From CBDUXZ01 sp965371325 [NCBI: uncultured bacterium] (lineage in GTDB: Bacteria; JAUYMQ01): 8,172 nt of DNA. The notes under the pieces are model-generated. The model was given only the letters and a program-made list of their open reading frames with translations, had not been told where the DNA came from and did no database searches. Location: NCBI GenBank assembly GCA_965371325.1, contig CBDUXZ010000074.1, positions 1-8,172 on the forward strand, given 5' to 3'. The position numbers were made by a program, and so were the translations under genes. This document shows, piece by piece, positions 925 to 8,172 of the stretch (position 1 is its first letter; every line of letters begins with the position of its first letter).

Positions 925-2244
925 ATGGATAAATACCTCTACCTCGAGACGTTCGGCTGCCAGATGAACGAGCACGACTCGGAGAAAATCGCCACCGTCC
1001 TCGCTCGCAGCAATTACCATCTCACGCGCGATCCCCGGCAAGCCGATCTCATCCTTCTGAACACCTGCACCATTCGCGAGAAAGCCGATCAGAAGTACCT
1101 CTCGACCCTCGGCCGATACCGGGCGCTCAAGGCGAGTAAGCCCGAACTCATCATCGGCGTCGGTGGGTGCTCCGCCCAGCAACAGGGCGAGCGCCTTCTC
1201 AAGCAGTGCTCCCATGTCGACCTCGTCTTCGGCACGCACAGCATCCTCAGGCTCCCCGCGCTGCTCGACGAGGTGCGGAGGAGCAGGCGCGTGGTGAGCG
1301 TTGACTTCACCGGCGCGCTCGAAGATCGCTTCGATGCCACGCTTCTCCCGGTATCGCGGCATCCCGCGCGCGCCTACGTCACGGTTATGGAAGGGTGCGA
1401 TCTGTTCTGCACTTTCTGCGTCGTCCCCTTCACCCGCGGCCGCGAGATCTCCCGTCCCCCTGCGCAGATTCTTTCCGAGGCGCGCGCACTGGCTGAGCGG
1501 GAGGTGAAGGAGATCACCCTTCTGGGCCAGACGGTCAATGCCTATGGGCGGCGGCGGGGTCAGACGCCCTTCCACGAGCTCCTCTTCGCCATCGACGAGA
1601 TCCCCGGAATTGAGCGTGTTCGCTTCACCTCGAGCCATCCGCTCTACGCAACCGAGGGGCTGATCGACGCCTACCGCCACATGAAACATCTCTGCCCGCA
1701 TCTGCATCTGCCGGTTCAGTCCGGCTCCAATCGCACGCTGGCGCGCATGCACCGCCGCTACACACGAGAGGCGTATCTCGGGATCGTGGCGCGCGTGCGC
1801 AAGGCGCGGCCCGACGTGGCGGTGACCACCGACCTGCTCGTGGGTTTTCCGGGGGAGAGCGCGGAGGACTTCGAGGAAACGCTGAGCCTCATGCGGGAGG
1901 TGCGTTTTTCGGACGCCTACGCATTCGCCTACTCGGAGCGGCACGCCACCAAGGCGGCGGCCTATCCCGATCAGGTTCCGCAGGGGGAGCGCAAAGAGCG
2001 GCTGGCCCGCATACTGGCCCTTCAGAGGGAGATCAGCCTCGCCGACAATCAGTCGCGGATCGGGGGCATTGAGGAGGTGCTGGTGGAGGGGCAGAGCAAA
2101 ACCGACCCCGCCAGGCTTACGGGCCGGACGGGCCATAACAAGGTCGTCAATTTCGCGGGCGATCCGAAGCTTGCCGGGACCATTACGCCCGTGCAAATTG
2201 TCGATGCGTTTCCAAATTCGCTTGGAGGCGAACCGCTCCATTGA
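925..2244 (+). CDS. miaB: tRNA-2-methylthio-N6-dimethylallyladenosine synthase MiaB
   Basis: This radical-SAM methylthiotransferase adds the methylthio group at C2 of isopentenyl-adenosine 37 in tRNAs that read codons starting with U. At 439 residues it has the normal length. Domain order is complete: an N-terminal MTTase domain with cluster cysteines C12 (ETFGCQMN), C48 (NTCTIR) and C82 (GGCSAQ); a radical-SAM core with the CxxxCxxC motif at C158, C162 and C165 (GCDLFCTFCVVP) followed by FTRGREISRP; and a C-terminal TRAM domain from about residue 380 to the end. The CVVPxTRGRE context favours MiaB over RimO or MtaB. The motif usually written YSxRPGTxAA reads YSERHATKAA (336-345), a mild departure. 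The ATG is chosen because GGAGGA (909-914) lies 10 bases upstream and the protein starts directly with the first beta strand. A promoter lies at 858-886. Identity is secure. Confidence 0.96.
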   Translation: MDKYLYLETFGCQMNEHDSEKIATVLARSNYHLTRDPRQADLILLNTCTIREKADQKYLSTLGRYRALKASKPELIIGVGGCSAQQQGERLLKQCSHVDLVFGTHSILRLPALLDEVRRSRRVVSVDFTGALEDRFDATLLPVSRHPARAYVTVMEGCDLFCTFCVVPFTRGREISRPPAQILSEARALAEREVKEITLLGQTVNAYGRRRGQTPFHELLFAIDEIPGIERVRFTSSHPLYATEGLIDAYRHMKHLCPHLHLPVQSGSNRTLARMHRRYTREAYLGIVARVRKARPDVAVTTDLLVGFPGESAEDFEETLSLMREVRFSDAYAFAYSERHATKAAAYPDQVPQGERKERLARILALQREISLADNQSRIGGIEEVLVEGQSKTDPARLTGRTGHNKVVNFAGDPKLAGTITPVQIVDAFPNSLGGEPLH

Positions 2245-2342: not shown

Positions 2343-2840
2343 ATGTTAATCGAAATGAAGGTGGCCGGGCTCATTGTCGACGGTTCGAGCAACGTCCCGT
2401 TGCTGATTCTCAAGGACGAGGAGGATCGGTATTGCGTCCCCATCGTCATCGGACTTCCCGAGGCGCGGGCGATAGTTTCGGAACTGCAGGAGGAGAAATA
2501 TCCCAGGCCGCTCACCCACGATCTGCTGAAGAGCGTGATCGAGACTGCGGGGAGCAAGGTGGAGAAAATCGAGGTGACGGATCTGCGGGAGGATACGTTC
2601 TTCGCCTCCATCCATATGAGCACGGGAGGCAAAACGCGGGTGGTCGATTCGCGTCCCAGCGACGCCATCGCCCTTGCCCTCCGGACGAAGGCTCCCATCT
2701 TCGTTGACGAGCGGGTCATCGAGAAGCTGGGCGGCGAGGAGAAGAGCACCAGGCCCGCGTTTACGGGCGACAAGAAGGAGAAATGGACCGAATTGCTCGA
2801 GAACCTGAAGCCCGAAGATTTCGGAAAGTATAAGATATGA
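2343..2840 (+). CDS. Bifunctional nuclease family protein (DUF151/BFN domain)
   Basis: The 165-residue product has the BFN (DUF151) domain over most of its length. Landmarks are the opening strand MLIEMKVAGLIVDG, PIVIGLPEARAI (37-48), RPLTHDLLKSVI (55-66), TFFASIHM and the signature VDSRPSDAIALALR near residues 101-114, followed by KAPIFVDERVI. The remaining C-terminus (about 130-165) is charged, rich in Lys and Glu, and probably flexible. Family members have been reported as DNases and RNases or as stress- and wounding-related proteins, but the cellular substrate in most bacteria is unknown, so only the family is assigned. AGGAGG (2333-2338) lies 4 bases before the ATG, a short but workable spacing. 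It follows miaB on the same strand and ends at the compound terminator 2841-2904, so it closes that transcription unit. Confidence 0.9.
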   Translation: MLIEMKVAGLIVDGSSNVPLLILKDEEDRYCVPIVIGLPEARAIVSELQEEKYPRPLTHDLLKSVIETAGSKVEKIEVTDLREDTFFASIHMSTGGKTRVVDSRPSDAIALALRTKAPIFVDERVIEKLGGEEKSTRPAFTGDKKEKWTELLENLKPEDFGKYKI

Positions 2841-2904: not shown

Positions 2905-2946
2905 GGTATTTCACGACCCGAACTCGTCCACTTGGGGGGTAGCCAA

Positions 2947-4854
2947 ATGAGCAAGGGCCGGATCCTGGCGGTCGACGACGAACACTTTTTCCGGGTCTTG
3001 TACGAAGATCTCCTGGGTGGTGAGGGGTACGCCGTCACCACCGCGGAAGACGGCGCCCGGGCGCTGGAGATCCTCGAGAGCGAGACCTTCGACGTCGTCA
3101 TCCTGGACGTGATCATGCCGGGTGAGGACGGCGTTCGGGTCGCGGAGCGCATAAAAGACAGGTGGCCCACCCTCGAGATCCTCTTCATCACGAGCCTTCG
3201 AGACGTGAAAGTCGCCACGAGCGCGATGCAGCGCGGCGCATCGGACTTCCTTACAAAGCCCATCAATCCCGACGAGCTTCTTGCCGTCATCATGCGGCTG
3301 TTTGAACGGCGGGCCGTGTTCCAGGAACATACGCGGCTTCTCGACGAGAATGTCTACTTTCTCGACTCCCTCGGCGTCTACCAGCGCGGCCTGCGCATTA
3401 TGGAGAAGCTCGATCCGGATGAGCTGTGCGAAGCCATCGTCGAGCGCCTGACGGCCGAGACCTCGGCGCAGGGGGGGGTCCTTTGGCTCGCTCTGGAAGA
3501 GAACAGGAACCGCTTGAAGCTGCAGGGCGTTCGCGGACTCGTCGTTTCGGATCAGGAGCCGGGGGAGATCTCCTGGAGCGATCACCCCAACGCGGAATTG
3601 CTGAAGCAGGGGAAGCCCTTCTACGCGACCGATGCCCAGGAGGCGCCCGATTCCAAAGAGTCCCTCAGAGACCGGAACACGCTCTTTGTTCCGGTTCTGG
3701 AAGGGGGCAAACCGGTTCTCCTGGTTCGGCTCACCGACAAGGTCGGCGGCAACCAGTTCGGTGACGAGGATCTTCGGAAGACGCGGCTCCTAGAGCAGCT
3801 CTTTCTGACCGCCCTGCGAAACGCGCGAGCCTACACTTCCCTGGCGCACCGCTCGCCGAAGGACGATCGGACACGGGCCTACGATATGGATTTTTTCAAC
3901 AACTACCTCGGGGCCGAGCTTCAAAAGTCGAATCGCTTCAAACGAAAGTTCTCCCTGCTCGCCCTGCGAATCACCAACTACGCGGATCTCCGGAAGCGCT
4001 ACGACGCGAAGGCGCTAAGAGAACATGCGGATACGGTCGTGCGGGCCGTCTCAGGCGCGGTTCGCGAGATCGATCTGATCGGACGGCTTACGGACGACGA
4101 GTTCTACGTGCTTCTTCCGGAGACGGACTACTTCGCCTCTCTCTCCCTGAAGAAGCGGATCAGCGAGGCACTCGCCGAGAGCAGCCAGCGCGGTCCGGCC
4201 CCACTGAATGTCGCGCTGGCCGCGGTGACGTACCCGGGAGACGGCGATAGCGCCAAGCTGCTCTTCCACGCCCTGCGAACCGGGCTGCTGCGTGAGCAGA
4301 TAGGGCTCGACGCGAGACGCGATGGATCGGCCGACTCGCATTGGGATTTCGTGGCAACGCTGCTCGCCTCGAAAAAGCCCGGTTTCCCTGAACGGGAGCG
4401 GCGCGGGATCCGGCCCGAGAATTCCACCATTCGGAAGGGGCGGTTTTCGACGGCCTTCTTCACGCGTCTGCAGGAGTGCCTGGTCGAGGAGATAGGGCGC
4501 GATCCCCGCGTGAACGGCATTACCTACGTTGGCCTGGGCGAACTGGACGGGGGGCAGCCCATGCTGGCGGCGCGCTCCGGCGAGGAGCGGCCGGCAACCA
4601 GGATCTACGCGATCGGAGCCCCCCGCGACTCTTCGGCGCTACCGGGCGACGGGTGGGCGGCGCCCGTGCCGGTTTCCGATGATCACATTCGCAATCACCG
4701 ATTCATCCTGTTCCTCTCGGAGGAATCGGCCTACGCCTTCTACGGGCGGCTGGATGGGGAGGATCTGCAGGGCTTCCACACCTCGGACAAGGGGTTCGTC
4801 GAGAGCCTTATCTTCAAGCTGCAGGAGGAGTATGACCTTCAGTCCCACATCTAG
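2947..4854 (+). CDS. Response regulator: receiver-GAF-degenerate GGDEF protein
   Basis: The 635-residue cytoplasmic protein begins with an intact receiver domain (1-120): acidic pair D10/D11, phosphoacceptor D54 in ILDVIMPGEDG, switch T82/S83 and K104 in LTKP. Residues about 155-298 resemble a GAF domain (FVPVLEGGKPVLLVRLTDK, then a long helix). Residues about 305-455 follow the GGDEF fold, from DDRTRAYDMDFFNNYL to VTYPGDGDSAKLL, but the catalytic motif reads TDDEF (382-386) instead of GGDEF, and the metal-binding DxD is RIT (341-343). Diguanylate cyclase activity is therefore unlikely. Residues about 465-635 are a further region I cannot assign. No signal peptide or membrane segment is seen. 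ATG 2947 is preferred because GGGGGGT (2934-2940) sits 6 bases upstream; an in-frame TTG at 2932 would add five residues but would lie on that site. It follows a strong terminator, so its own promoter is expected in 2898-2930, where none is obvious. It is first in a same-strand run of four genes. Confidence 0.88.
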   Translation: MSKGRILAVDDEHFFRVLYEDLLGGEGYAVTTAEDGARALEILESETFDVVILDVIMPGEDGVRVAERIKDRWPTLEILFITSLRDVKVATSAMQRGASDFLTKPINPDELLAVIMRLFERRAVFQEHTRLLDENVYFLDSLGVYQRGLRIMEKLDPDELCEAIVERLTAETSAQGGVLWLALEENRNRLKLQGVRGLVVSDQEPGEISWSDHPNAELLKQGKPFYATDAQEAPDSKESLRDRNTLFVPVLEGGKPVLLVRLTDKVGGNQFGDEDLRKTRLLEQLFLTALRNARAYTSLAHRSPKDDRTRAYDMDFFNNYLGAELQKSNRFKRKFSLLALRITNYADLRKRYDAKALREHADTVVRAVSGAVREIDLIGRLTDDEFYVLLPETDYFASLSLKKRISEALAESSQRGPAPLNVALAAVTYPGDGDSAKLLFHALRTGLLREQIGLDARRDGSADSHWDFVATLLASKKPGFPERERRGIRPENSTIRKGRFSTAFFTRLQECLVEEIGRDPRVNGITYVGLGELDGGQPMLAARSGEERPATRIYAIGAPRDSSALPGDGWAAPVPVSDDHIRNHRFILFLSEESAYAFYGRLDGEDLQGFHTSDKGFVESLIFKLQEEYDLQSHI

Positions 4855-4872
4855 GGGACGATCACGCCGCGC

Positions 4873-4890
4873 GCGGGCCGGTGAGCCCGC
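4873..4890 (+). other. Intergenic hairpin between the two signalling genes
   Basis: GCGGGC (4873-4878) pairs perfectly with GCCCGC (4885-4890) around a CGGTGA loop in the 62-base gap. No U run follows, so it is not an intrinsic terminator. The next gene's presumed ribosome binding site, GGGGAGG (4898-4904), lies 7 bases downstream, so the hairpin could influence translation or protect an mRNA end. Confidence 0.35.
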
Positions 4891-4916
4891 CGGTGGTGGG
4901 GAGGCCCGGCCCGAGC

Positions 4917-6497
4917 ATGAGTGAAGCGAAGTGTATCCTGATCGCCGAGAACGACCCGCGCGCGGGACGTGAGCTGAAGTTCGCCCTGGAGGGGAGGGGC
5001 TACGCCGTTCGCCTCACGGCGAGCACAGTCCGGGCCCTGGAGTACTGCATCCACAAGCGGCCCGATCTCGTGATCGTATCGGACGGCCTACCGGTCATCG
5101 ACGGGCGCACGCTCGTGGACATTCTTCGCTCCAATCCCAACACGCGCGACACCCTCTGCATCTTCCTGGTTCCCAATCCCGAGTGGTTCGCCGTCGCCCC
5201 CGGCTTCCAGGAGGAAGTGGTCAGGAGTCCCGGCTTGCCCGGCGACGTCGTGGCGGCCGTCGAGAAGATCTTCAGCCGCGCCGAGCGCGTGGGGCACATG
5301 TCGAAGGATCCCGGCTCCATGACGAAGGGGGACATCGAGGAGATCCCCGTGCTTGAGGTTCTGGAAGCGCTGCACAAGAGCGGGCGGACCGGAACGCTCT
5401 TCATCGAACAGGCAGTCGCTCTTCGGGGGGTCGGGCAGGGCTTCATCTACTTGAAGGAGGGCGAGGCGATCAACGCGCTCCTGGGGCAGGTCGACGGGGA
5501 GAAGGCCCTGTTCCGCCTCTTTTCATGCCGCCAGGGCCGCTTCGAGTTTATCGCGGATCAGGCCGTGACGGAGTGGCGTATTCGCCGGCCGCTTCATCAA
5601 CTGCTCGTGGAAGGGGCGCGGCAGATCGATCAGTGGAAGCGCATTAGCGCCGTTCTCCCCGGGCCCAAGACCCAGCTGCGGCTCCGCGCGAAGGTGGCCT
5701 CTCTCCCGCCCGGCATACATCCCCTGACGCAGGAGATTCTACTTCTGCTCGAGTACCACACCCGTGTGGTCGATGTGGTCGACAACTGTTCCGCTTCCGA
5801 CTATCAGGTGCTGAGAACACTTCACACGCTTATCCGGAAGGGCATCGTCGAGGTGGCCTCCGGCAACGGGGAGGAAAAGGCGGATGAGCCCGCGGGCTAC
5901 CGGTGGGTCACCGATTCCCAGCTCGGCCGTCTGGAAGAAAAGCTTGCTCCGCACGGGCTTCCCCCCTCCGGGAAGATATTCGGACGGATCCTCATTTTCT
6001 CTCCCGACGCGGGCCTGAAGAGGGAGCTTCTGGAGGCGATGAGGGATCTTCCCGGTTTCACCCTGGCCGGCGGTAAAGATGGCCGGCCGGGAAGCGAAGC
6101 ATCAGGAGGAAACGGGCCCTTTCCGGCGATCGGCGAGTGGCATCTCTCGGAGAAACTCTCCCTCAGGCTCCAGGACGCGCCTGTCGATGAGCTGCAGCGC
6201 CCGATCTGGTCGCTGCTCTCACGGGGAGCGGTGGGCGCGTTGTTTCTCATGAACGGTTCGAGGGAGGACTGGATCAACGCGCTCCGGCCGGCTAGCGATT
6301 TCTTCCAGTCGGCGTGTCCGATTTCAATTGGCTACTTGATCCTGGGCGAGGGGGCTGTACAAATGGAGCTGAAGGCCAAGCTGGTGAGCGCGTTCACCCT
6401 GAAGGGTGACAACGCGCTGTTCATGCTGCCGGGGAAGCAGCCTGAAAGGCTCCGCGTTATCCTTAAGGGCTTTCTCGATCAGATCGTCAGCCATTAG
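4917..6497 (+). CDS. Receiver-like/PATAN (DUF4388) protein with GTPase-like C-terminus
   Basis: The 526-residue protein has four parts. Residues 1-122 have a receiver fold, but the landmarks are altered: E11-N12-D13 in place of the usual acidic cluster, VSDGLPVIDG (54-63) with one residue fewer than normal between the candidate acceptor D56 and the proline, V85 where Thr/Ser is expected, and RSP (103-105) in place of KP. Phosphorylation is doubtful. Residues about 138-242 match DUF4388/PATAN, from GDIEEIPVLEVLEAL through SGRTGTLFIE, GFIYLKEGEAINALLG and the cysteine-containing FSCRQGRFEF. Residues about 266-340 look like a winged helix (PLTQEILLLLEY, LRTLHTLIRKGIVEV). Residues about 353-526 resemble an MglA/Ras-type GTPase (KIFGRILIFSPDAG, RPIWSLLSRGAVGALFLMNGSR), but the P-loop GxxxxGK[ST] is missing (SPDAGLKREL). 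ATG 4917 is preferred: it sits right before the first receiver strand, and GGGGAGG lies 12 bases upstream. An in-frame GTG at 4881 has no site. Most likely a protein-protein signalling adaptor. Confidence 0.82.
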   Translation: MSEAKCILIAENDPRAGRELKFALEGRGYAVRLTASTVRALEYCIHKRPDLVIVSDGLPVIDGRTLVDILRSNPNTRDTLCIFLVPNPEWFAVAPGFQEEVVRSPGLPGDVVAAVEKIFSRAERVGHMSKDPGSMTKGDIEEIPVLEVLEALHKSGRTGTLFIEQAVALRGVGQGFIYLKEGEAINALLGQVDGEKALFRLFSCRQGRFEFIADQAVTEWRIRRPLHQLLVEGARQIDQWKRISAVLPGPKTQLRLRAKVASLPPGIHPLTQEILLLLEYHTRVVDVVDNCSASDYQVLRTLHTLIRKGIVEVASGNGEEKADEPAGYRWVTDSQLGRLEEKLAPHGLPPSGKIFGRILIFSPDAGLKRELLEAMRDLPGFTLAGGKDGRPGSEASGGNGPFPAIGEWHLSEKLSLRLQDAPVDELQRPIWSLLSRGAVGALFLMNGSREDWINALRPASDFFQSACPISIGYLILGEGAVQMELKAKLVSAFTLKGDNALFMLPGKQPERLRVILKGFLDQIVSH

Positions 6498-6504
6498 GGG
6501 GAAA

Positions 6505-6540
6505 GGGGATTGCTTCGTCGCCGTGCTCCTCGCAATGACA
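6505..6540. repeat. Dispersed palindromic repeat (ATTGCTTCGTCG...CTCGCAATGAC type)
   Basis: The segment starts GGGGATTGCTTCGTCG and ends CTCCTCGCAATGACA, with terminal complements ATTGC (6509-6513) and GCAAT (6532-6536). From general knowledge, this short element is seen in many copies between genes of diverse bacteria and is often mistranslated; its frames read GDCFVAVLLAMT on + and CHCEEHGDEAI on -, which are hallmark phrases of such spurious proteins. It starts 8 bases after the PATAN-gene stop. Mobility as a non-autonomous element is assumed, not shown. It means the carbonic anhydrase-like gene should not be extended upstream through this region. Confidence 0.75.
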
Positions 6541-6606: not shown

Positions 6607-7158
6607 ATGGATGGACCGGGCGTTTTCGGGCGCGTCAAGACGCATCACGGCGTCACGCCCGGCATTCACGCGAGCGTGTTTGTCGCAGAAGGGGCAATTG
6701 TCATCGGTGACGTGGAGATCGGGGAGGGCTCCAGCGTCTGGTATCAGACGGTGGTGCGTGGAGACGTGAATTTTGTGCGGATCGGGCGCCGGACCAATCT
6801 CCAGGACGGATGTGTCGTGCACGTCCACCAGAAAACGCACCCCTGCGTGATCGGCGACGAGGTGACCGCGGGGCATCAGGTTATTCTTCACGGCTGCACC
6901 GTGAAGGATCGATGCCTGATCGGCATCGGGGCGACGATACTTGACGGGGCCGTGGTGGGCGAGGAGGCCGTCGTGGCCGCCGGGAGCCTCGTAACCTCGG
7001 GCATGATCGTGCCACCGCGGAAGCTCGCGATGGGACGCCCCGCGCGGATTGTGCGGGATCTGACCGAGGCGGATCTTGTCTGGATAAAGGAGTCGGCGGA
7101 CAACTACGCGCGTTACGCTGGCGAGGCGATCGAAGAGGCCGCAAAGGGGGAGACGTGA
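6607..7158 (+). CDS. Gamma carbonic anhydrase family protein (left-handed beta helix)
   Basis: The 183-residue product is built of hexapeptide repeats (VIGDVEIGEGSSVW, VIGDEVTAGHQVILHGCTV, LIGIGATILDGAVVGEEAVV) that form a left-handed beta helix, ending in the C-terminal helix LTEADLVWIKESADNYARYA. Residues corresponding to the gamma-class carbonic anhydrase site are present: R51 and D53 (RGDVN), Q66-D67 (NLQDG), and candidate zinc ligands H72, H90 and H95 (VVHVH, AGH, ILHGC). The acidic loop of the archaeal Cam enzyme is absent, as in the YrdA/CamH branch, whose members may be zinc enzymes hydrating CO2 or may lack activity. GGAGGG (6591-6596) is 10 bases before the ATG; an in-frame TTG at 6601 has closer spacing and would add two residues. 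The open frame continues upstream only through the repeat DNA. The 3' end overlaps the next start by four bases (GTGA), so translation is probably coupled. Confidence 0.88.
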   Translation: MDGPGVFGRVKTHHGVTPGIHASVFVAEGAIVIGDVEIGEGSSVWYQTVVRGDVNFVRIGRRTNLQDGCVVHVHQKTHPCVIGDEVTAGHQVILHGCTVKDRCLIGIGATILDGAVVGEEAVVAAGSLVTSGMIVPPRKLAMGRPARIVRDLTEADLVWIKESADNYARYAGEAIEEAAKGET

Positions 7159-7610
7159 GTCGATTGAAGGCCGAAATTGTCGAGTTCTTGGGAGAGACGC
7201 AGCTTCTCGCGGGATGGCCCAGGGAGGATCTGGAAACGCTAGCCCATGCGATGAGCGTTCGTCCGCTCGAGCCGGAAGAGACGCTGTTCGAGGAACGTCA
7301 GCCCGGCGACGCCATGTACCTCCTGCTCGAAGGCCGGCTCTCCGCCTGGCGCGGCGAAGAGGAGGTCGGAGATCTTCGCGAGGGCGATCATTTCGGCGAA
7401 GGGGCGCTGGTGCGGCCCGGGCCGCGCCGCGTGACCGTGCGCGGCGCCGATCCGTCGACCGTGGCCGCGCTCTCGGCGGAAGCCTTTGTGCAACTGGGGG
7501 AGTCGCATCCCGAAGTGCATGCGAGGTTCCTTCGCGCGCTCCTTCGCGAAACGACCTCAAAGATGGCTGAAATCGAGGGTTTCCTTGACAGGCCTGGGAA
7601 CATTCGGTAG
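7155..7610 (+). CDS. Stand-alone cyclic nucleotide-binding domain protein
   Basis: The 151-residue product carries a single cNMP-binding (CAP_ED-type) domain at about 15-120: LEPEETLFEERQPGDAMYLL, then LEGRLSAWR, GDLREGDHFGEGAL and RPGPRRVTVRG. The phosphate-binding cassette region FGEGALVRPGPRRVTV keeps the FGE and a basic PRR, with V at the position often occupied by A or T before the hydrophobic strand. There is no DNA-binding helix-turn-helix, kinase or channel attached; after the domain there is only a helical tail (RFLRALLRETTSKMAEIEGFL). It would sense a nucleotide and act through a partner, or be a scaffold. The start is GTG 7155, overlapping the stop of the preceding gene, with GGGGG (7146-7150) 4 bases before it. 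No strong terminator follows. Ligand identity cannot be told from sequence. Confidence 0.85.
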   Translation: MSRLKAEIVEFLGETQLLAGWPREDLETLAHAMSVRPLEPEETLFEERQPGDAMYLLLEGRLSAWRGEEEVGDLREGDHFGEGALVRPGPRRVTVRGADPSTVAALSAEAFVQLGESHPEVHARFLRALLRETTSKMAEIEGFLDRPGNIR

Positions 7611-7847
7611 CTTCGCCCCTCAAATCGTGTCCCCAGGAGCACGGCTCCACGGGCGGCTCCGCACAGGTTACGACCTTCACTAAACGATAAATACGTTCCC
7701 CGAAATCGTCGGCTCGAAAGACGGTCGTGATCCCGCTCAAGGTGCTCCAGTTCCAGGCTGGCGCGTGGGATTGCGGCAAGCAGGGCAGATCCATCCAGGC
7801 CATCATTCGGACCGCCGGGGGTCCGGCGACCCAGGGAGGAGCCTCTG
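7611..7847 (+). promoter_or_regulatory. guaB upstream region with 5' leader
   Basis: These 237 bases contain no recognised gene. GGAGC (7636-7640) and GCTCC (7644-7648) make a small hairpin without a U run. The only AT-rich spot is around 7681-7693 (TAAACGATAAATA), a possible -10 region (GATAAA at 7686), without a good -35 at normal distance. If transcription starts nearby, the leader is about 150 bases long. Its end holds CGCCGG (7813-7818), loop GGGT, CCGGCG (7823-7828), five bases before the guaB ribosome binding site. GGAC (7809-7812) and GTCC (7821-7824) offer a competing pairing. Purine-riboswitch landmarks were not recognised. Confidence 0.45.
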
Positions 7848-8172
7848 ATGCTCGAGGAACAGCTGCAGGTGGGACTCACGTTTGATGATGTGCTCCTGGT
7901 GCCGGGGAAATCCGACGTGCTTCCCCACGAGGTTGACCTCTCGGCCCCTCTGACCGAAAAGATCCGGCTCAACATCCCCATCGTATCGGCCGCCATGGAC
8001 ACCGTTACGGAGTACCGCACGGCCATCTGCATTGCGCAGGAGGGGGGACTCGGTATCGTCCACCGCAACCTGACGCCGGCGGCGCAGGCCGCGGAGGTCG
8101 ATAAGGTGAAGCGCTTCGAGTCGGGAATGATCGTCGATCCGATCACGATGGACCCCGATCAGCGCATCGGCG
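7848..8172 (+). CDS. guaB: IMP dehydrogenase GuaB, N-terminal part (runs off the window)
   Basis: IMP dehydrogenase oxidises IMP to XMP with NAD+, the committed step of guanine nucleotide synthesis. The visible 108 residues match the family start: [20 protein letters not shown] (9-28), [20 protein letters not shown] (29-48), [23 protein letters not shown], and then [15 protein letters not shown] (90-104), where the Bateman (CBS pair) module normally begins. Full-length enzymes are near 490 residues, so the catalytic loop cysteine and most of the barrel lie beyond the window. The ATG is supported by GGGAGGA (7834-7840) with a 7-base gap and by the conserved N-terminus. The 237-bp gap and the leader hairpin suggest its own expression rather than membership of the preceding unit. 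Confidence 0.95.

Follow-up and report, generated by a model that had tools for sequence, protein, structure and literature searches.

PATAN genes are found near the mglA genes of Groups 1 and 5 of the MglA family of small GTPases, and Group 5, as described in the available text, has a standard G4 motif, occurs in Chloroflexi and deltaproteobacteria, and has PATAN neighbours (PMC4316618). In Anaerolinea, a DUF4388 protein and an Srp102-like GTPase appear under consecutive accessions (PMC8756737), and in cyanobacteria PATAN binds the pilus motor PilB (PMC10519157). GTPase folds that have lost their motifs are also on record. The pseudoGTPases named in the available parts of the cited papers are eukaryotic, and the CheY superfamily is described there as a GTPase-like fold without G motifs, a relation different from that of the family reported here (PMC5593906). 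Among enzymes of cyclic di-GMP (c-di-GMP) signalling, CdgA of Bdellovibrio has a degenerate GGDEF domain, binds c-di-GMP with a Kd of about 2 uM and has no cyclase activity, and it interacts with RomR and with an MglA-binding TPR protein in a hub at the invasive pole (PMC3271064, PMC3983030).

The window (the whole stretch of 8,172 nucleotides that was analysed) contains a gene, here called the scaffold gene, that brings several of these elements together (Table 1). By computation, its product ends in a domain of small-GTPase fold and ancestry, the GTPase motifs of this domain are lost across the sampled clade, the domain evolves under purifying selection, and the gene is in fixed pairing with the one directly upstream. 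The coordinates of the open reading frame, first given in a sequence-only reading of this DNA, are borne out. The genes of the window are, in order, MiaB-like, bifunctional-nuclease domain, receiver-GAF-GGDEF-like, scaffold, hexapeptide protein, cyclic-nucleotide-binding protein, and the start of IMP dehydrogenase. The last three (6640-8171) occupy the place where 20 of 25 relatives' loci have PHP; in L206-L208, PHP and IMP dehydrogenase are both present. Shortly 3' of the scaffold gene, at 6508-6539, stands GATTGCTTCGTCGCCGTGCTCCTCGCAATGAC, whose minus strand gives ARSTATKQS. It has one copy in the window and is presumably a dispersed bacterial repeat.

Table 1. Positions in the window of the scaffold gene, its parts and its conserved neighbours
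Feature	Positions	Strand	Remarks
Receiver - PATAN - winged-helix-like - pseudoGTPase gene (scaffold gene)	4917..6497	+	526 aa plus stop
Degenerate receiver	4917..5288	+	residues 1-124; Response_reg 31.0 bits
PATAN / DUF4388 domain	5325..5639	+	residues 137-241; Pfam PF14332, E 7.8e-19
Winged-helix-like segment (predicted)	5694..5861	+	about residues 260-315; three helices and a short strand, pLDDT about 80
PseudoGTPase domain (predicted)	5976..6494	+	residues 354-526; model, fold search, hhalign against intact GTPases
Lost G1/P-loop site	5982..6023	+	residues 356-369, GRILIFSPDAGLKR
Switch II signature P422-x6-P429-x-W431	6180..6209	+	column counts in 44 members
MiaB-like gene	925..2244	+	first in conserved gene order
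Bifunctional-nuclease-domain gene	2343..2840	+	part of conserved gene order
Partner gene: receiver - GAF - degenerate GGDEF - conserved C-terminal domain	2932..4854	+	
RxxD I-site motif of partner	4063..4074	+	R378 to D381
Degenerate GGDEF site TDDEF of partner	4090..4104	+	residues 387-391
C-terminal domain of partner	4414..4851	+	alignment; low-confidence model

At the N-terminus, the receiver of the window protein lies just above the Pfam cut-off of 30.2 bits. It had been read as lacking the conserved Thr and Lys, and the alignment agrees: E11-N12, V85 and S104 stand at the remaining columns, where the roles given to the receiver columns (phosphoacceptor, acidic pair and others) are assumed. 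The phosphoacceptor column holds S55 (5079-5081), with D56 beside it, so that the acceptor is lost too. The same reading had the loop after the candidate Asp one residue short, and this was mistaken, as there is no shortened loop in the alignment. Across 24 members, the phosphoacceptor column holds D in 12, E in seven, S in three and G in two, and two of the 24 have an acidic residue at position two of the acidic pair. Judged from these columns, the loss of receiver residues appears complete in the window protein and partial in other members. A phmmer search with the receiver matched an ordinary receiver (3t6k, E 1.6e-8), and the pseudo-receiver of FrzS (2gkg, E 8.6e-6) was also among the matches.

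The PATAN domain that had been recognised by eye is confirmed by Pfam (68.3 bits, gathering cut-off 25), and DUF4388 was matched in all 24 family members scanned. The segment that follows would have a winged-helix-like fold according to the model. Pfam gave no credible match beyond residue 241 of the window protein and left the C-terminal part without a match in this protein and three relatives, and phmmer with the C-terminal part alone returned one chance match.

The fold of this part emerges from its predicted structure. A model built from four sequences covers residues 235-526, its residue i corresponding to residue i+234 of the protein, and has a mean pLDDT of 69.6 and a pTM of 0.57. In the GTPase part, 10-residue means are 60-88, falling to 36-47 in the loop after a1. 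The predicted elements are b1 354-361, a1 365-375, a short strand 381-383, b2 404-409, b3 414-421, a2 425-435, b4 438-446, a3 450-466, b5 470-477, a4 482-493, b6 500-505 and a5 509-525. In the model, this gives the order b1-a1-b2-b3-a2-b4-a3-b5-a4-b6-a5 with six strands, which is the Ras order. The GTPase-like succession proposed from the letters is thus found as Ras topology in the model of residues 354-526, and both the fourth strand and the switch II stretch fall at the places proposed.

Foldseek returned 443 PDB matches at E up to 0.001, the best being Rab7 (E 4.7e-7, probability 1.00), and among the best 50 of the 443, 49 titles name a small GTPase. The chains superpose loosely (TM 0.32/0.48, rmsd 7.8), in part owing to a second domain in the model. 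In VIA-align, ARF1 matched at Z 13.3 (154 residues, rmsd 3.3) and MglA (3t12) at Z 12.0 (151 residues, rmsd 3.5), and all of the 50 matches listed are GTPases by title or protein named. Structure prediction and fold search of the C-terminal segment both return the small-GTPase fold, and no model without that topology was obtained. It is nearly certain that this is the identity of the domain.

Relatives of the protein were reached by way of its neighbours. As a single query, the window protein found no relative in the genome collection or the viral contigs, and the neighbouring nuclease-domain gene was therefore used as bait. It matched 29 loci, four of which (L002, L005, L006 and L008, from three Deltaproteobacteria and one uncultured bacterium) share the gene order and a scaffold homologue. 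Among 198 genomes of the same phylum, a profile of the C-terminal half found 23, in 22 of which the match covers the GTPase-like part; a larger draw of 395 genomes gave 46. In four of these 46 the match is confined to the beginning of the profile, which reduces the count to 42 of 395. These 42, the window and L005 make up the set of 44 members (43 distinct domain sequences) used below, with L002 (split) and L006 (contig end) left out. The phylum drawn for G001 (20 of 148 genomes) was the same phylum again, and that of G209, with five genomes only, gave no match in the five. The set of intact GTPases has 27 rows, 26 of them distinct, and the MglA Group 1 alignment holds 15 of the 17 sequences read out, without L092 and L099.

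In the family loci, MiaB is usually followed by the nuclease-domain protein, the partner and the scaffold, and then often by PHP, PQQ and GH57. In L002, the scaffold gene (3914-5372) lies in two overlapping frames, which is a frameshift or an assembly error. Short frames encoding PATAN alone, L036 (151 aa) and L037 (148 aa), occur in genomes that have the family as well, and L090 and L092 are MglA Group 1 GTPases in 470- and 498-aa frames with long C-terminal extensions.

The ancestry of the C-terminal domain was traced with profiles. Against the PDB, a four-row profile of the domain gave 59 sequences at E up to 10, mostly ARF-type GTPases (best E 0.0033). With 24 rows, ARF scored weaker (E 0.035) and was mixed with matches to ribosomal eL38, so the case for ancestry rests on the fold and on hhalign. 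In hhalign, the 24-row profile aligned end to end with five intact "GTPG" GTPases of the same phylum (97.4%, E 1.3e-11, 164 columns), and the result was unchanged without the row of the window (97.5%). The controls gave 5.0% for MglA Group 1, 1.5% for the family's own receiver, 1.4% for the winged-helix part, 0.3% for PATAN, and at most 0.7% for ten column-shuffled copies. At 5%, MglA Group 1 was rejected as the direct source. The domain profile also matches intact GTPases directly (L137, E 5.2e-13; L083, E 4.2e-12). When the HMM was built from the other sequences, it still recovered the C-terminal domain of the window protein at E 3.3e-25; of 5,000 letter-shuffled copies, none scored better than E 1.8. 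An HMM from the intact GTPases only finds 39 of the 44 members at E up to 10, many of them weakly, compared to two of 2,200 shuffled copies, and the window's own domain is weak in this search (E 0.086). Profiles and model together place the domain, as a pseudoGTPase, in the bacterial small-GTPase lineage of MglA type ("GTPG"). The intact relatives probably belong to MglA Group 5, an assignment made by setting them against the published description of that group (PMC4316618).

The motifs of this lineage are missing from the family. A P-loop (GxxxxGK[ST]) stands at the G1 position in 0 of 44 members compared to 27 of 27 intact relatives, so that the loss read in the window protein is conserved across the clade, with no member keeping an intact P-loop there; L061 has one P-loop-like string beyond the G1 position, in the stretch between G1 and G3. 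For the window protein itself, the Ser/Thr of the P-loop is gone as claimed, and both glycines with it. The Lys had been counted as lost as well, but K368 fills the Lys column, which is occupied by Lys in the window alone (1 of 44). The call of a broken DxxG is likewise right in part: the Gly has become V423 and the Gln D424, and neither residue is kept in any of the 44 members, but the Asp is not diagnostic, since intact relatives carry GTPG. G2 and G4 ([NT]KxD) are not conserved at the aligned columns, where the alignment is gappy and uncertain. As judged from the model and the 44-member alignment, a fold without G motifs would put the domain among the class (i) pseudoGTPases.

Other residues of the domain are held. 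The proline of G3 (P422) is found in 43 of 44 members and the switch II Trp (W431) in 37; P429 is Pro in all 44, and 24 of 27 intact GTPases have Phe there; F381 is Phe in 41 of 44, and 24 of the 27 have Val. Taken with the loss of the P-loop and G3, these positions mean that the family acquired a new switch II signature, now fixed, while giving up its catalytic residues. The interpretation of the domain as a whole stands, as neither another fold nor an intact P-loop elsewhere in the domain has appeared.

In a tree of the 44 members, the 27 intact GTPases and 15 MglA Group 1 rows, the family occupies one side of a single branch (100/99), and with a single change of label one origin suffices for the pseudoGTPase clade. 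Several branches are long, that of the window being the longest (2.29), and the tree program warned that long branches meet, those of the pseudoGTPase and MglA sides included, and that such joins can be false. Among eight close pairs, which share members and are not independent, seven give a dN/dS of 0.146-0.305 for the domain and the eighth is saturated. The other domains range over 0.075-0.366, and the pseudoGTPase domain lies within that range. The domain is under purifying selection.

The gene next upstream of the scaffold gene is a homologue of the partner in all 25 loci and in all 20 further loci. Its GGDEF-fold half is matched at Z 19.4 (147 residues, rmsd 2.4), and the diguanylate cyclase motif GG[DE]EF is found in 0 of 23 aligned partner sequences (23 of 26, with L002, L070 and L081 left out). 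The RxxD motif, five residues before the GGDEF position, is invariant (R378 and D381 in 23 of 23). RxxD is also found in active cyclases, and the argument for a receptor therefore rests on its invariance after the loss of the active site. The partner, on which the sequence-only reading was silent, is probably a second pseudoenzyme, as its motifs suggest, although a related degenerate GGDEF site, AGDEF, can be active (PMC3974145). Its C-terminal domain has four invariant columns in the 23 members. No convincing Pfam or PDB match was found for it, a PDB profile search staying at chance level, and its model is poor (10-residue means of 33-67 after residue 160). DICT (Pfam PF10069) matched one of 23 members weakly (E 0.24) and was found in 0 of 59 genomes; Roadblock was considered for the same region. 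In the window, the receiver of the partner is strong (102.7 bits), and the partner frames of several relatives have just 329-362 aa, which leaves no room for receiver and GAF, so the input end varies within the family.

A likely source of the architecture is found in Chloroflexota. In this phylum (that of G205, locus L017, Anaerolineales), the domain profile matches 29 of 121 genomes, and 20 of these loci were fetched (L164-L183). A PATAN gene lies next upstream of an intact GTPase gene in 19 of the 20, and in L164 (3088-4470, minus strand) PATAN is fused to an intact P-loop GTPase in a single 461-aa frame, followed by two Roadblock genes (Pfam). By Pfam, DUF4388 is present in the L164 fusion and in all four unfused PATAN proteins tested, and the GTPases belong to Arf/Ras/ATP_bind_1. 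The association of PATAN with MglA-type GTPases, named in the sequence-only reading, is in print (PMC4316618), and these 20 loci sharpen it. The same reading knew of no fusion with both modules decayed. Fusion as such does exist with an intact P-loop, in L164, and it is the decayed form with a receiver that is particular to the family. Of the 198 genomes of the first phylum, 5 have an intact GTPase of the same type as a separate gene, with a Roadblock gene adjoining in the two loci examined; none of the 29 family loci has a Roadblock gene by a profile from two sequences only. The Chloroflexota pairs suggest that the family arose by fusion of an existing pair and addition of a receiver, and that the switch would have been lost afterwards.

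A dead fold kept in a clade beside a dead c-di-GMP-making enzyme suggests a signalling scaffold without catalysis, and "pure interaction platform", the term first used for the window protein, may describe it. Other accounts of the domain itself fare poorly against the evidence above. Because receiver and small-GTPase folds are similar (PMC5593906), the C-terminal domain might be thought a second receiver or another Rossmann-like fold, which is hardly credible given six strands in Ras order, GTPases among all 50 VIA matches listed, and hhalign scores of 1.5% with the family's own receivers and 97.4% with intact GTPases. It is quite improbable that the domain still binds nucleotide through changed residues, as a class (ii) or (iii) pseudoGTPase, perhaps with slow cycling: the fold is intact in the model and the window protein has K368 in the Lys column of the P-loop, but the P-loop is missing in 44 of 44 members, its Lys in 43 of 44, and the Gly and Gln of G3 in all 44. 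Decay to a pseudogene or fusion relic is very improbable, since the frames of the other members used are open, dN/dS is well below 1 and new residues have become fixed, even though the window's branch is long and the L002 copy is split between two overlapping frames.

What the scaffold acts on is a separate matter. The chances are about even that it is a non-catalytic scaffold of MglA-type pseudoGTPase and degenerate receiver, fed by a c-di-GMP-binding partner, with PATAN docking on a pilus or MglA target. The partner (receiver, GAF, dead GGDEF, intact I-site motif) would bind c-di-GMP and pass its state to the scaffold; the most likely docking target of PATAN would be the type IV pilus motor or the machinery of MglA polarity; and a frozen GTPase surface would replace the nucleotide switch of the ancestral PATAN-plus-GTPase module. 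The protein perhaps takes part in type IV pilus or MglA polarity control. Among the 198 genomes, with kinship ignored, PilB passes its curated cut-off in 22 of 22 carriers compared to 101 of 176 non-carriers (p 1.3e-5, one-sided; for carrier G101 the neighbouring pieces had to be counted in), and a loose threshold gives p 0.18. MglA Group 1 is found in 21 of 22 carriers compared to 92 of 176 non-carriers (p 3.5e-5, same genomes, kinship ignored). Against this link, no gene pointing to pili was found among the scaffold's neighbours in the family loci, nor a Roadblock gene in 29 of these loci by the two-sequence profile. It is a real but minority possibility that the same dead scaffold serves some other process tied to this neighbourhood (MiaB tRNA modification, the nuclease-domain protein, PHP/PQQ/GH57) and not pili or polarity. 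The kept gene order speaks for this, with PHP in 20 of 25 loci and MiaB in 21, the sequence of the remaining four stopping short of it; the co-occurrence with PilB and MglA, in which kinship is ignored, speaks against it, as do the known binding of PATAN to PilB (PMC10519157) and the lack of a PHP gene downstream in the window itself. For the scaffold linked to pili or polarity, it is conceivable, though rather unlikely, that the partner acts as a pseudo-cyclase sensing c-di-GMP at its I-site, and that the pseudo-receiver/PATAN/pseudoGTPase scaffold under its control imitates an MglA-type GTPase in one fixed state. The scaffold may then be a competitor of active MglA for effectors, GAPs or the pilus motor. 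If this were true, the level of c-di-GMP would reach polarity or pilus control without GTP hydrolysis, by way of three degenerate classical domains in two proteins.

PseudoGTPases, pseudo-receivers and dead GGDEF receptors are each known; an MglA-type origin together with the fixed pairing is, as far as searched, not described. The literature searched on PATAN/DUF4388, bacterial pseudoGTPases and MglA, mostly open-access papers, gave no description of the receiver-PATAN-pseudoGTPase architecture. A bacterial family, intact PATAN-GTPase pairs and one fusion together form a before-and-after series from molecular switch to scaffold, and the dead GGDEF of the partner, whose I-site motif is fixed, gives a handle on whether c-di-GMP reaches the MglA and type IV pilus polarity systems.

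Each module has a counterpart in the available descriptions of known systems. The pseudo-receiver of FrzS in Myxococcus xanthus likewise lacks the phosphorylation residues, but FrzS itself continues into a coiled coil, unlike the window protein (PMC11580455). The cyanobacterial regulators PixG, PilG, TaxP2 and PixE also join PATAN to a receiver; in cyanobacterial PATAN-CheY proteins an N-terminal PATAN precedes the receiver, whereas here a degenerate receiver comes first and PATAN second, with the winged-helix-like and GTPase-fold parts after them (PMC10519157, PMC7690835). CdgA (Bd3125) resembles the partner in its dead GGDEF with RxxD five residues upstream, whereas GAF, the conserved C-terminal domain and the pairing with the scaffold set the partner apart from it (PMC3271064). 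The Chloroflexota loci have PATAN and the same type of GTPase, with one fusion, but the P-loop is intact in all 20, the genes are mostly separate, and the N-terminus of the L164 protein has no receiver. With the MglA family of Wuichet and Sogaard-Andersen, the family shares the fold, a full-length profile match and a genomic link to PATAN proteins; it differs in having lost the P-loop and the G3 Gly-Gln, in its unconserved G2 and G4, and in its fusion to receiver and PATAN (PMC4316618). The eukaryotic class (i) pseudoGTPases p190RhoGAP pG1/pG2, CENP-M and fungal dynein LIC are likewise Ras folds with eroded G motifs that form part of regulatory proteins, whereas the present family, known here by sequence and model, appears to be of bacterial MglA-type origin (PMC5593906).
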